DNA of 11,298 bases from an archaeon (GTDB taxonomy: Archaea; Hydrothermarchaeota; Hydrothermarchaeia; JALTZZ01; JALUTC01). Below, piece after piece: positions 581-10,926 of this stretch; positions within the stretch are counted from its first letter, which is position 1, and every line of letters starts with the position of its first letter. Made by a program: the position numbers and the translations under genes. The notes under the pieces are model-generated. The model was not told where the DNA came from. It saw only the letters and a program-made list of their open reading frames with translations, and did no database searches. The DNA lies in contig JALTZH010000180.1 in the NCBI GenBank assembly GCA_027051265.1, forward strand, positions 1 through 11,298, in the 5' to 3' direction.

Positions 581-1702
581 CTATATTTCTTTTATACCAA
601 AAACTGTTGAAGCTATTAATCCTATCAAATATGTTATCGTTGCAGCACCTAATCCGATGATGATCATCTCAAAGGATTTTTTCTTAATGTCTAAATCGGC
701 GGAAAGTGCTATTATTGAACCTGTTAGTCCAAGAAGTACTCCTGCTAGAATGAATGATATTAGAATAGCAGTGCTAATTGGTAGCATTAGAAAATAAGGG
801 ATAAGAGGAAATAGTGATCCAATTATATAAAATAATCCAGTATAAACTCCAGCTCTTATAGGATTTTCCAGAGTTTCTTCTTTTAGACCATATTCCTCCT
901 TTATAGCAAAATTTTTAAGAAGACTTTTATTTCGTTCTAGATCTTTTATCATCAAATCTATAACATTTTTACTGAAACCTCTATGTATTAATTTTTTATA
1001 AAACCTTTTGATCAATGCTAATGATGCATATTTTACTGCAGATGCTACTCTATTTATAATACCTACTCTTACTTCTTTCTGAGCCTTTACACCTGCATAT
1101 ACTCCTAATCCCATTGAGATGCTTCCTCCTATAGCAACTATCAATCCTCCTATTGCTACATGTATCGGATTTCCATATGCACCAGCAAGTCCCGCAGATA
1201 TAGATAAGATTTCAACGAGACCATCATTCATACCTAATACTGCATCACGTATATAGTTTAAAAATTCTTTAAACTTTGCTTTTTCTTCTATAAGTTCATT
1301 TTCATGTATTAATTCTTCCTCGAGTATACTTTTTATCTTAGTTTTAATTTCATCGCTAAGCTCAAAGTTCTCTAAAATTTTCATATAAATTTCAATCGCT
1401 TCTCTTTCACCTCGCTCCAAAAGCTTGAGGGTTAAACCCAGTCTCAAAAATCTGCTAAGTATTTTAATAAGAAATAACTTTACTTTACTAGGTTTAAGTT
1501 GAGAGATATCAATTCCAAGAGATTTCAAAAAGCATCTCCAAAATACCGCATGCTCCTTTTCTTTCTTAGCTATTTCGTTAAGTTTTTCGCTGAATTTTTT
1601 ATCATGTACGTATCTAGTAGCGAGATATTTATAAATCGAGTTTGAATATAATTCATCTAAATATACTTTAACAGCATATTTTATTAGATGTTTCTCTTCC
1701 AT
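581..1702 (-). CDS. Ferritin/rubrerythrin-like domain fused to VIT1/CCC1-family metal transporter
   Basis: A probable iron or manganese transporter of the inner membrane with an N-terminal metal-sensing or ferroxidase-like domain. Counted from the ATG at 1702 (373 aa), residues about 1-145 form a four-helix ferritin-like domain with spaced carboxylate/His groups: DEL near 16, EKEH at 48-51, ERGEREAIE at 96-104 and EEELIHE at 128-134. Residues about 150-373 are the VIT1 domain: DAVLGMNDGLVE at 153-164, glycine-rich helices to about 205, a charged helical insert (about 210-280) and three more hydrophobic segments (285-370). The architecture resembles membrane-bound ferritin A and archaeal VIT1-family proteins. 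I chose the internal ATG because the longer reading from 1738 overlaps the upstream gene by 32 bases; the chosen start follows that gene's stop by 4 bases. It is the last gene of a three-gene operon. Metal specificity and direction of transport cannot be read from sequence. Confidence 0.88.
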   Translation of the reverse strand: MEEKHLIKYAVKVYLDELYSNSIYKYLATRYVHDKKFSEKLNEIAKKEKEHAVFWRCFLKSLGIDISQLKPSKVKLFLIKILSRFLRLGLTLKLLERGEREAIEIYMKILENFELSDEIKTKIKSILEEELIHENELIEEKAKFKEFLNYIRDAVLGMNDGLVEILSISAGLAGAYGNPIHVAIGGLIVAIGGSISMGLGVYAGVKAQKEVRVGIINRVASAVKYASLALIKRFYKKLIHRGFSKNVIDLMIKDLERNKSLLKNFAIKEEYGLKEETLENPIRAGVYTGLFYIIGSLFPLIPYFLMLPISTAILISFILAGVLLGLTGSIIALSADLDIKKKSFEMIIIGLGAATITYLIGLIASTVFGIKEI

Positions 1703-1706
1703 AAAA

Positions 1707-2672
1707 TTAGAGATGTACAACTTTGAAATAATCACCAATAACGTTTAGAATATATCTTCTATGACAATGCTTGTAATTTTTCTCCATGCACATGATGGCA
1801 ACGTTTAAACATTTTTTGATAACTTTTAACAGCTTGATAATACCATTGATGAAATCATAAGTATACATATATTTTTCATATCCTCCCGTTCTAAAACCTC
1901 CTAATTCTTCGATCCAAAAATACTTTATACCAACTTTTTCCAGTTCTTTTTTAAGATTTTCTCTACAATATTCCTTTATTTTACTCGTTGGGAATCTTCT
2001 TACATCAACGATAGCATTGATATTTTTTGAGTTCAATATCTTTAAAAAATTTGAAAATCTTTTATCACTATATCCTATATCGTAAACTGTTATATGAGGA
2101 AATTCTTCCGAGACAAATCTATAATCCTTTAATATAAAATCGTTATCGTTAAAATCATAACCAAGCCAATATAGAATTAAACCCTTCCCAAATTTTTCCG
2201 AATAATATACGTATTGTTTTCTCTTAAAGTATTCATGTATCTTCTCATCAGCATAAAAGAATTTGCTCTCAATCCAATTAATCTCAACGTTATTTATCTT
2301 AAGATTGTTATCTAAAATAAAATCCGGTTCTTTTTTGTTTTTCCTTCCTTTAATAAATTTTATCCCTTTAGATTTTAAATACTCTTCTAGAAGCTTTTCG
2401 TAGTATTTTCCTCTTATTTCTTGAACAATTGTAGCAATTGGAGAATATAATCTATCGGATAATATAACCTTACAACACGTTCTTTCGGAAAATTTTTTAC
2501 CATACTTTTTCTCAAGCCTCTTTAATACTAAATACGATGCGTGCTTTAACTTTAAAACTTTATTTTCATCTAAATAATCATCTATGTTTATTTTTATTTC
2601 TTTTAATATATATTTTTTAAGTAATTTTTGGTCCTGTAATATCTTATTTAAGAGCTCATCTCTTTCAAACAT
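1707..2672 (-). CDS. CDIN1-like TPD nuclease domain fused to DUF488 domain
   Basis: A two-domain protein of 321 aa. Residues about 40-172 match the TPD family (CDIN1/C15orf41, a PD-(D/E)xK-type nuclease fold known in eukaryotes and archaea): a Cys/Asp-rich stretch and SPIA near 66-80, EPDFIL at 115-120, NWIESK at 132-137 and GKGLILYWLGY at 162-172. D117, E135 and K137 are the expected PD...ExK catalytic set. Residues about 193-321 are a DUF488 domain: TVYDIGYS at 195-202, VDVRRFP at 222-228, EELGGFR at 255-261 and the CMEK...CHRR pair at 295-306. Residues 1-40 are lysine-rich helix. DUF488 has no settled function. The ATG at 2672 lies 25 bases inside the aminotransferase gene, with no clear ribosome site, which suggests coupled translation. 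Nuclease activity on DNA or RNA is inferred from the fold; the substrate is unknown. Confidence 0.85.
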   Translation of the reverse strand: MFERDELLNKILQDQKLLKKYILKEIKINIDDYLDENKVLKLKHASYLVLKRLEKKYGKKFSERTCCKVILSDRLYSPIATIVQEIRGKYYEKLLEEYLKSKGIKFIKGRKNKKEPDFILDNNLKINNVEINWIESKFFYADEKIHEYFKRKQYVYYSEKFGKGLILYWLGYDFNDNDFILKDYRFVSEEFPHITVYDIGYSDKRFSNFLKILNSKNINAIVDVRRFPTSKIKEYCRENLKKELEKVGIKYFWIEELGGFRTGGYEKYMYTYDFINGIIKLLKVIKKCLNVAIMCMEKNYKHCHRRYILNVIGDYFKVVHL

Positions 2673-3796
2673 TTTTCAATTAGTTCAAGTCCTTCTTCAA
2701 TTTTTTCAATTGGAATTGTTATGGAAAGGCGTAGATGATTTTCTCCACCAGGACCAAAAGCTTCACCTGGTATTGTGGCTACGTGATATTTCTCTATCAA
2801 TCTTTCAGCCAATTTAAAACCGTTGACATTGAATTTTGGAAACACATAAAACGTGCCTTTAGGTTTTATATGAGATATATTCATCTCGTTTAATCTCTTT
2901 GTTATGTATTCCATTCTCTTCCTGTATTCGTAATTCATCATTCTAACAAAGTATTCACATTTTTTAAGTGCAGCAATCGCTGCAATTTGAACAAAACTTA
3001 CAGCACACGATACGGTATGCTCTTGTACCTTTGCCATCTCATCTATTATCTTCCTATTAGCAATTGCATATCCTAGTCTAAATCCTGTCATAGAATATGT
3101 TTTAGAAAAGCCGTTAATCAATACAATTTTATCTCTTGCTTCTTTAAACTTAAGTAGTGTAATATGCTTTTCAAACGTTATCCTATCGTAAATTTCATCA
3201 GAAAGTATATAAACGTCATTTTCAAGACATAAATCTATGACTTTTCTTAAGGTTTTTTCATCATAACTACATCCCGTTGGATTATTGGGATAATTTAATA
3301 TCAAAAGCTTTGAATCAGCAATTTTTCTTTCCAAATCTTCGATATCTATTTTAAAACCTTCTTCCTCTATAGTTTTTACAAATTCAACAACACCATCACA
3401 TAATTTAACTATTGGTTCATAGCTAACCCAACATGGTGTTGGAATTAATACCTTATCACCTGGATTTAATAGGGTTGCAACCGCCTCAAAAATTGCTTGT
3501 TTTGCACCAGGTGTTATAATAATTTCCTCATGATCAACGTTAATGTTATATAATTCTCGATACTTTTCAGCGATGGCTTTTCTTAGTTCTAAATAACCTT
3601 TAGATGGTGCATAGTATATATAGTTGTTTTCAATAGCATTATTAATCTCAGTAATAACTTCTTTTGGAGTTTTAAAATCAGGCTCTCCAGCAGCAAAATT
3701 TATGACATCAATTCCCTTTTGCTTTAAAGTTTTTGCTTTTGCTGTGATTTGAAGTGTTGAACTCTTAGGTATTTTAAGAACTTTATCCGATAACAA
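2648..3796 (-). CDS. Class I PLP aminotransferase, aspartate/aromatic type (AspC-like)
   Basis: A 382-aa fold-type I aminotransferase of the aspartate/aromatic subfamily, using pyridoxal phosphate to move amino groups between amino acids and 2-oxo acids in the cytoplasm. Seen: FAAGEPDF near 34-41, YAPSKGYLELR at 62-72, the NYPNNPTG loop at 168-175, D200 and Y203 of SDEIYD, the PLP lysine K232 in GFSKTYSMTGFRLGY, R240 and the substrate-carboxylate arginine R356 in HLRLS. Length is normal. It starts at TTG (3796-3794): there is no ATG near, and GGTGA sits 5 bases before the TTG as a ribosome site. It heads the operon with the TPD-DUF488 and ferritin-VIT genes. Substrate is not decided; aspartate, tyrosine or phenylalanine are all possible, and with trpE, trpC and hisC nearby a biosynthetic role is likely. 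Confidence 0.9.
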   Translation of the reverse strand: MLSDKVLKIPKSSTLQITAKAKTLKQKGIDVINFAAGEPDFKTPKEVITEINNAIENNYIYYAPSKGYLELRKAIAEKYRELYNINVDHEEIIITPGAKQAIFEAVATLLNPGDKVLIPTPCWVSYEPIVKLCDGVVEFVKTIEEEGFKIDIEDLERKIADSKLLILNYPNNPTGCSYDEKTLRKVIDLCLENDVYILSDEIYDRITFEKHITLLKFKEARDKIVLINGFSKTYSMTGFRLGYAIANRKIIDEMAKVQEHTVSCAVSFVQIAAIAALKKCEYFVRMMNYEYRKRMEYITKRLNEMNISHIKPKGTFYVFPKFNVNGFKLAERLIEKYHVATIPGEAFGPGGENHLRLSITIPIEKIEEGLELIEKCLKEMSS

Positions 3797-9172: not shown

Positions 9173-9253
9173 AAAACATATCTAAAATCATGAAATCATG
9201 CCTTTTTTGTGTAGATATCTTGTTTTCATAAATAAATAATTCATTCTATTGAA
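9173..9253 (-). promoter_or_regulatory. Probable promoter of the membrane-anchored HTH gene with 12-bp inverted repeat
   Basis: The 81-base gap after hisC reads ATTATTTATTTATG on the minus strand (9240-9227), a weak TATA-like box that would start transcription near 9206. The interrupted palindrome CATGA-TT-TCATG (9200-9189) lies just downstream, between start site and ATG, where a repressor could bind. The gap is also short enough for read-through from hisC. Weak evidence, stated as possible. Confidence 0.35.
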
Positions 9254-10351
9254 TTAAGAAGATTTTGTACATATCATGTTCATGATCTCTTCAAGTGTTT
9301 TTATAAAAAGTTCCATATCATATCTCTTACCAATAGTAACTCTTAAATAATTTACATTTAATCCAAAACTCTCACAGGTCCTAATGATTATACCTCTTTT
9401 TAACAATTCTCTATAGATTATATTACCCTTACCATTTAAGGATTTTATCAAAATAAAATTTGCTTCAGATTTAAACGGTTTAATTCCTCTAATGTTCTTT
9501 AATCTTTCATAAACGTATTGCCTTGTCTTAATTATTTCCCTTATTATATTTTTATAATAATTTTCATAATTCCTAATTGCTATTGCTCCAATTTTTTGTG
9601 CTAAAGAATTAACGTTGAAAGGCAATTTAGCACGATTTAAGTAATCTATAACTTTAGGATCAGCAACGATATACCCGAGCCTTATTCCAGCAAGTCCAAA
9701 TGCTTTGGAGAATGTTCTTAAACATATTATGTTCTCATATGATTTCACCAGTTTTGTATAAGTTTTGCTTGCGAATTCTGCATAAGCTTCATCCAATACT
9801 ATTATAGAGTCGAGGTTTAATAATTCGTTTAGAAAGTCTTCCTCAATAACATTTCCCGTTGGATTGTTAGGAGTACATACGATTATTAATTTTGGTTTCA
9901 TTTTTTTAACAGCATTAGAGATATCTTTTGGATATTCAAAGGAACTTTCCTTTTCAATGAGATTTATTTTTATAACTTTTGCACCATATATCTTAGAAAG
10001 TATCTCGTATAGTGAGAAAGTTGGGGTAAATATTAGAACGCTATCGTTTTTTTCTATAAATCCTTTAAATATTAAATCCAATCCTTCATCAGAACCATTT
10101 GTAATCAAGATGTTCTCTTTGTTCAATTTTATAAATTTAGAAATTTCGTTTAATAACTCTGAAGGATGTTCATCTGGATATATATTTAAATTTTTATAAT
10201 TTTTTAAAAAATCATATATCTCATTACATGCAGGATAAGGATTTTCATTCGAAGATAGTTTTATTACATTTATAGGTTTATCCACTTTAGATTTTCCTGG
10301 TATATAAATTTTTGATTGCAATATATTCTTCTTAAAAAATTTTTCAATCAT
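9254..10351 (-). CDS. hisC: Histidinol-phosphate aminotransferase
   Basis: A 365-aa PLP aminotransferase that converts imidazole-acetol phosphate and glutamate to histidinol phosphate, in histidine synthesis. Seen: LSSNENPYP (32-40), the HisC/CobD signature near the N-terminus; TNGSDEGLDL (84-93); the PNNPTGN loop (161-167); D187 and Y190 of LDEAYAEF; the PLP lysine K216 in RTFSKAFGLAGIRLGY; R224; LPFNVNSLAQ (243-252); SEANFI; and the substrate arginine R337 in YLRVTIG. The LPFNVNS segment separates HisC from AspC-type enzymes such as the one at 2648. Length is normal. It starts 8 bases after the stop of the KH-domain gene, without a clear ribosome site, so it is likely translated from the same mRNA. 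No other his gene is in view. In some archaea HisC also serves other transaminations, which cannot be judged here. Confidence 0.93.
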   Translation of the reverse strand: MIEKFFKKNILQSKIYIPGKSKVDKPINVIKLSSNENPYPACNEIYDFLKNYKNLNIYPDEHPSELLNEISKFIKLNKENILITNGSDEGLDLIFKGFIEKNDSVLIFTPTFSLYEILSKIYGAKVIKINLIEKESSFEYPKDISNAVKKMKPKLIIVCTPNNPTGNVIEEDFLNELLNLDSIIVLDEAYAEFASKTYTKLVKSYENIICLRTFSKAFGLAGIRLGYIVADPKVIDYLNRAKLPFNVNSLAQKIGAIAIRNYENYYKNIIREIIKTRQYVYERLKNIRGIKPFKSEANFILIKSLNGKGNIIYRELLKRGIIIRTCESFGLNVNYLRVTIGKRYDMELFIKTLEEIMNMICTKSS

Positions 10352-10359
10352 GCTTGAAT

Positions 10360-10926
10360 CTAATCTTTTTTATATATTGCTTCATAAAATCTTCTCTCTC
10401 TTAATTCAAGAGCTTTTCTTTCCAGGAATCTATAGACACTAGCATGAGATTTTCCTTCAGCCAACATTAGGATACCTTCTCTTGCAATTGAAACTTCTTC
10501 ATACTTTCCTATAATACTGACGGTTTTTCCATAGATAGCAAGATTAACGTTTAACGTATCTTCGAAGAATTTTCTGCATCTTCCTTTCTCTCCAATAATT
10601 CTTCCTCTTTGTCTTATCAATTCTTTTCTCGAAGAGACAATTTCAGATAAATCTATTATTTCAAGAACAAATTCATCGTTTAATAATTTAAACGCAACCC
10701 CTGGTGAAAATCCTCTCCCTATAGCTAAAACGATGTTCTTTGCTTTTAATGCGTTAAGAGCATGATCAGTATCATATATGATTTTTACAGAATTTTCTTT
10801 CTTATTTATTTCTAACTTTATTTTGAGTTCATTTTCTATTCTCTTCTTTACATCACCGTTTTTACCTATGAGTACAGGTATCCTTTCTTCAGGTATTTTT
10901 ACAACGATTTCGAAGAATTCTTTCAT
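10360..10926 (-). CDS. KH-domain RNA-binding protein, Pno1/Dim2-like ribosome biogenesis factor
   Basis: A 188-aa protein with two KH domains, matching the archaeal Pno1/Dim2 (Krr1-like) family, which binds near the 3' end of pre-16S rRNA and works with the Nob1 nuclease and aIF2 in small-subunit maturation. KH1 (about 5-65) carries the RNA-binding loop GKNG at 21-24 in VLIGKNGDVKKRIE. The family's linker IGRGFSPGVAFKLL is at 69-82. KH2 (about 95-160) carries GEKG at 112-115 in RGRIIGEKGRCRKFFED, followed by VNLAIYGKTVSIIG. The C-terminal helix (160-188) contains GKSHASVYRFLE, typical of the family. Both GxxG loops are intact. The gene starts at ATG 10926, is followed by hisC after 8 bases, and is preceded by a 113-base gap with an inverted repeat. 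In other archaea this gene often sits with RIO kinase and aIF1A genes; that context is absent here, although the upstream side is cut. Confidence 0.9.
   Translation of the reverse strand: MKEFFEIVVKIPEERIPVLIGKNGDVKKRIENELKIKLEINKKENSVKIIYDTDHALNALKAKNIVLAIGRGFSPGVAFKLLNDEFVLEIIDLSEIVSSRKELIRQRGRIIGEKGRCRKFFEDTLNVNLAIYGKTVSIIGKYEEVSIAREGILMLAEGKSHASVYRFLERKALELRERRFYEAIYKKD

Follow-up and report, generated by a model that had tools for sequence, protein, structure and literature searches.

The TPD family, which includes human CDIN1 (C15orf41), has been predicted to consist of PD-(D/E)XK nucleases, and a similarity between CDIN1 and the resolvase Hjc has been reported (PMC7261414). The same work predicted AraC/XylS-like helix-turn-helix domains in the N-terminal region of CDIN1 and found no nuclease activity of the human protein on many DNA and RNA substrates (PMC7261414); by 2026, none had been published (PMC13370696). 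Orthologues of C15Orf41 have been reported from Euryarchaeota, and Codanin-1, the partner of CDIN1 in humans, resembles the CCR4-NOT scaffold CNOT1 (PMC7092493).

Known members of a second family, DUF488 (PF04343), carry a C-x-E-x5-C-H-R loop that is also found in the full DUF488 domain described here. They stand alone, are fused to ParB-like domains or lie beside a conserved protein without a Pfam match, whereas the domain described here is fused to TPD. Burroughs and Aravind (2023) reportedly placed DUF488 in the rhodanese-phosphatase superfamily, in the same clade as DUF4326, with a predicted role in DNA-end processing. This superfamily comprises cysteine phosphotransferases, and ADP-ribose phosphates have been put forward as the substrates of its DUF4326 clade (PMC9503650). 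Fusions of DUF488 to ParB-like domains have likewise been described (PMC12704722).

Both families meet in a single gene of the window, by which we mean the whole stretch of 11,298 nucleotides of archaeal DNA that was analysed. The open reading frame at 1707-2672 (minus strand, ATG at 2672) encodes 321 amino acids, and the original prediction that it joins a TPD to a DUF488 domain holds, since the two are in frame and both Pfam profiles match well above their cut-offs. The N-terminal part, on whose agreement with the TPD profile (PF14811) the prediction had been made to depend, matches it at residues 67-172 (2157..2474, minus strand; E 2.7e-27, 95.7 bits vs a cut-off of 27), and DUF488 matches at residues 207-310 (E 6.7e-18, 65.9 bits vs a cut-off of 22.2) within a domain that spans residues 195-321 (1710..2090, minus strand). 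The preceding helical region (residues 1-66; 2475..2672, minus strand) is shorter than in other TPD proteins. The protein thus shares the PD and ExK motifs with CDIN1, but CDIN1 lacks DUF488 and has Codanin-1 as its partner, while in the protein of the window the N-terminal region is shortened and a DUF488 follows at the C-terminus.

The catalytic residues proposed for the TPD half, D117 of the PD motif (2322..2324) and E135 and K137 of the ExK motif (E135-S-K137, 2262..2270), are found where they had been predicted and are near-invariant among 42 archaeal TPD domains: D117 and K137, together with the acidic E92 upstream of the PD motif (2397..2399), occur in 42/42 and E135 in 41/42 (all on the minus strand). 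The window has E-P-D where 39 of the 42 domains have T-P-D, and its ExK motif reads ESK. The E, D, E and K of the PD-(D/E)XK superfamily are thereby present in the expected order. The DUF488 half is complete, as had also been claimed, with the loop C295-M-E297-x5-C303-H304-R305 (1758..1790, minus strand) in place; these five residues as well as G200, D223 and R225 are invariant in 27/27 DUF488 domains, and the window has every one. Because the conserved active-site residues are all present in both domains, both halves are intact, as judged by sequence.

The fusion gene lies between a class I aminotransferase gene upstream (2648..3796, minus strand; Pfam) and, directly downstream, a gene for a rubrerythrin-like domain fused to a VIT1 family transporter (581-1738, minus strand). 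The 3′ end of the aminotransferase gene extends 25 nt into the fusion gene, an overlap found identically in a genome of the same genus (G001), and the two genes are therefore likely co-translated.

A search of archaeal genomes for the same domain order, as had been suggested, showed that the fusion is a real junction and not an assembly artefact: in G001, the protein (60% identity) crosses the junction into the start of DUF488 before the contig ends, and a second genome, from the window's order (G002), carries the whole fusion in 399 amino acids, with both active sites and with an N-terminal region of the greater length that is expected of CDIN1-type proteins. Six further genomes of the window's class, from two of its families (G008-G013), encode TPD and DUF488 separately, with the DUF488 gene next downstream of TPD on the same strand. 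In G008, an 11-nt gap separates the two genes; in the other five they overlap, by 4 nt in G009 and G013 and, with predicted start codons, by more than that in G010, G011 and G012. The fusion therefore joined a pair of neighbouring genes. This arrangement of overlapping or near-adjacent genes strengthens the proposed functional link between the two families, whose parts probably work together.

TPD was found in 64 and DUF488 in 90 of 394 archaeal genomes by Pfam. Among the 16 genomes outside the window's class with matches to both, the two families were adjacent in 0/16, and neither fusion nor adjacency was seen among about 370 other archaea by Pfam matches, a measure to which the decayed form described below is invisible. 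In a DUF488 tree (FastTree), the partners and fused domains group with unpaired DUF488s of the window's class, and the ParB-fused and mobile-type DUF488s lie outside this group. Both families are known, and a fusion of the type in the window may already stand among the Pfam architectures. Among the papers naming DUF488 whose titles and abstracts were scanned, none describes a pairing with TPD.

With respect to the mobile-type DUF488 genes, those in seven loci (L087, L090, L091, L093, L094, L095 and L099) adjoin a gene for a conserved protein of about 250 amino acids with the pattern KERLLVLAK..P..S.KY...VCVAGIT..GEWRRIYPI; the one copy scanned, from L095, had no Pfam match. Some of the mobile-type DUF488s in these loci carry fused ParB-like domains. 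At L132:1105-2082, a DUF488 seems, by eye, to be fused to a MoaB-like (molybdenum cofactor) domain.

A search with the fusion profile against 344 genomes of another phylum led to family f16, which we take to be Archaeoglobaceae. Its TPD proteins of 284-373 amino acids have an additional C-terminal part (L118-L131, e.g., L118:2439-3506) that Pfam does not call as DUF488, with one sub-threshold match (E 0.0027). A profile built from seven of these tails nevertheless aligned with the DUF488 profile in hhalign with a probability of 98.8% (E 1.4e-16, 112 columns), and with E 8.9e-16 when the fused sequences were left out of the DUF488 profile, as opposed to E 0.07-0.55 for the controls (reversed DUF488, TPD, Hjc and HhH-GPD). 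This difference identifies the tail, at the level of profile comparison, as a decayed DUF488. The domain order is that of the window, but the DUF488 has decayed below Pfam calling and lacks the nucleophile: full-length tails have G, S or other residues in place of C295 and have lost D223 and R225. The tails are graded from full length to short remnants; in L130, a cysteine aligns at position 295, though in a shortened tail without the remainder of the loop. E92, D117, E135 and K137 are retained in 14/14 proteins of the family, so that DUF488 chemistry can evidently be lost in this setting and the nuclease cannot. No hidden DUF488 came to light in further families whose TPD genes have long reading frames (f17, f37, f64, f75 and others). 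As it lies below the Pfam threshold, the decayed form is probably unrecorded.

In a phylogeny built from 56 TPD domains, from which the DUF488 columns were left out, all 17 fused proteins (families f1, f2 and f16) fall into one clade (98% bootstrap, 92% SH-aLRT). This grouping, which takes in the lineage with the decayed DUF488, further supports a functional link and makes a single origin of the fusion likely, as far as the domain tree can tell. Two fusions, or transfer between lineages, are possible: the tree hints at a putative horizontal transfer between family f16 and the window's order, but an AU test did not reject a monophyletic grouping of the TPD domains from the window's class (p 0.22).

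Of the two halves, only DUF488 is informed by fold searches. AlphaFold2 models (two runs, three sequences each) gave the TPD half a pLDDT below 50 in both cases, which voids fold searches for this half, as well as any reading of an alpha-beta-beta-beta-alpha-beta core of the PD-(D/E)XK type from the models, and makes the lack of a nuclease match uninformative. No sequence-detectable relative of either half was found among PDB chains. The TPD half did not match a small Hjc-like set in profile comparison, and a cleaned larger Hjc set gave a non-significant E of 0.03 (reversed control 0.34); E-PD-ExK of Hjc (PF01870) falls into register with the TPD domain of the window only when the alignment is forced. 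The TPD half is a predicted nuclease. For the DUF488 half, models of two different proteins, of low-to-moderate confidence (pLDDT mostly 60-80), matched PTP-fold phosphatases and tetrapyrrole methylases with Z 7.5-10.5. SsoPTP (Z 8.6), PRL-1, laforin and a baculovirus RNA 5′-phosphatase were found on the PTP side, and the tetrapyrrole methylases reached Z 10.5. At the confidence of these models, the matches would agree with a Rossmannoid fold shared with PTPs and with a place in the rhodanese-phosphatase superfamily. The H-C-x5-R signature of a classical PTP is absent, the DUF488 half having C295-x9-R305 instead. The match for DUF488-N3 was weak (E 0.0038) and below cut-off.

The genes around TPD favour DNA repair as the probable setting, because archaeal TPD genes repeatedly adjoin genes for HhH-GPD base-excision proteins. 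By raw count, such genes lie on the TPD strand, overlapping or close to TPD, in 12 loci of three families: in 10/10 loci of f36 (L045-L054), in G115 of f48 (L061:1998-2648) and in G070 of f16 (L130:3474-4097). A gene for MutS domain V lies near TPD in family f3, and a PDDEXK_1/Cas4-like nuclease gene adjoins it in f98. In G002, the fusion gene and a DUF790 gene (Bax1 family, partner of XPB) are convergent (L084:7770-8969 and 9201-10685, respectively), and a MutS-like gene is nearby. Other neighbours are related to the ribosome. In G013 and G014, TPD stands at the end of an L21e-RpoF-DUF655-KsgA-HemK-like run (HemK-like by Pfam, the others by recognition), and one Archaeoglobaceae-like genome has a small NMD3-like gene (Pfam) before TPD in L131, with similar small ORFs before TPD in other loci of this group.

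Two further observations on TPD loci may be added. An AMMECR1-like gene, recognised by eye, adjoins TPD divergently in several genomes (L153-L156; f17 and f37). The Hjc resolvase was not detected in 7/7 searched Methanosarcinaceae-like genomes (f36), all of which have TPD; the searched Archaeoglobaceae-like genomes have both Hjc and TPD.

How might the two halves work together? Our preferred reading, which we hold tentatively and would put somewhat short of an even chance, is that a nuclease and a cysteine-type end-processing module share a single nucleic-acid substrate, with DNA repair as the probable setting. The CDIN1-like TPD domain would cut or trim DNA as a metal-dependent nuclease of the PD-(D/E)XK type. 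DUF488, as a rhodanese-phosphatase superfamily member that relies on a cysteine, would bind the cut end and modify it; most likely, C295 would accept a phosphate or a damaged sugar-phosphate remnant, and R305 would belong to the anion loop. The partners first occurred as neighbouring genes, as they still do in relatives, and their later fusion may have allowed one active site to pass its product to the other. In the Archaeoglobaceae-like lineage, the catalytic residues of DUF488 would have been lost, leaving a binding role at most. Several observations speak against such a two-module enzyme: the negative tests of CDIN1 (PMC7261414), the spacing C-x9-R in place of C-x5-R, the limited confidence of the DUF488 models and the 16 genomes outside the class that have both families without adjacency. 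The loss of the nucleophile, moreover, shows that DUF488 catalysis is dispensable in Archaeoglobaceae-like genomes, which makes a purely binding DUF488 the strongest rival. Under this rival, which we regard as doubtful, DUF488 would position or control TPD through a binding or regulatory function directed at a nucleic-acid end or at a nucleotide or ADP-ribose signal, and its chemistry would be incidental. It would account for an f16 lineage that keeps the domain fused, either at full length without C295 or shortened, next to nuclease residues retained in all 14 proteins, but not for the invariant catalytic residues of DUF488 in the window and G002 and among the separately encoded partners, which imply selection for catalysis there.

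The ribosome-related neighbours (the KsgA operon of G013/G014 and the NMD3-like gene of L131) argue against a repair setting and would fit a pair that acts on RNA, in rRNA or mRNA processing, with the DNA-repair neighbours being coincidental. The resemblance of Codanin-1 to CNOT1 (PMC7092493) and the RNA 5′-phosphatase among the fold matches point the same way; the HhH-GPD/TPD pairs in three families, the MutS-domain V gene in f3 and the DUF790 gene beside the G002 fusion do not, and we consider an RNA substrate unlikely. A role in antiviral or antiplasmid defence is suggested by matches of the DUF488 half to the PADLOC candidate families PDC-M45B and PDC-M19A and by DUF488 in viral contigs (six relatives) and in ANME plasmids (PMC9674854). 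We hold this to be very improbable, given that the TPD clade spans whole archaeal families, that its neighbours (aminotransferase, KsgA, HhH-GPD, ferritin-VIT) are not defence genes, that no TPD relatives were found in viral contigs and that the TPD-paired and fused DUF488s stand apart in the tree from the ParB-fused and mobile types. Little credence can also be given to a chance read-through that joined two neighbours without functional meaning: TPD and DUF488 do occur apart in most archaea, but fusion proteins from different genera and families, at 40-44% identity, have retained both active sites, and the fusion is also found in a second phylum.

The end-processing reading extends to a broader one, which we consider rather improbable as a whole. 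TPD-DUF488 would be a two-step enzyme made of a nuclease and a cysteine-based end-processor, and the CDIN1 nuclease family would have had this pairing as its original task, with a single fusion that has stayed active in the window's order and that in the Archaeoglobaceae has been reduced to a nuclease whose partner is dead in the manner of STYX. CDIN1 is an inherited anaemia gene for which neither an activity nor a substrate has been demonstrated, despite its predicted nuclease domain, and the archaeal fusions and overlapping genes name a candidate partner and a candidate class of substrate, nucleic-acid ends, for its family. Given that G013 has the partners as separate proteins and that cultivable Archaeoglobus-type relatives carry the version with the dead partner, the halves can be compared directly. 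If the pairing is indeed ancestral, the missing activity of CDIN1 would need a partner that processes or binds such ends.
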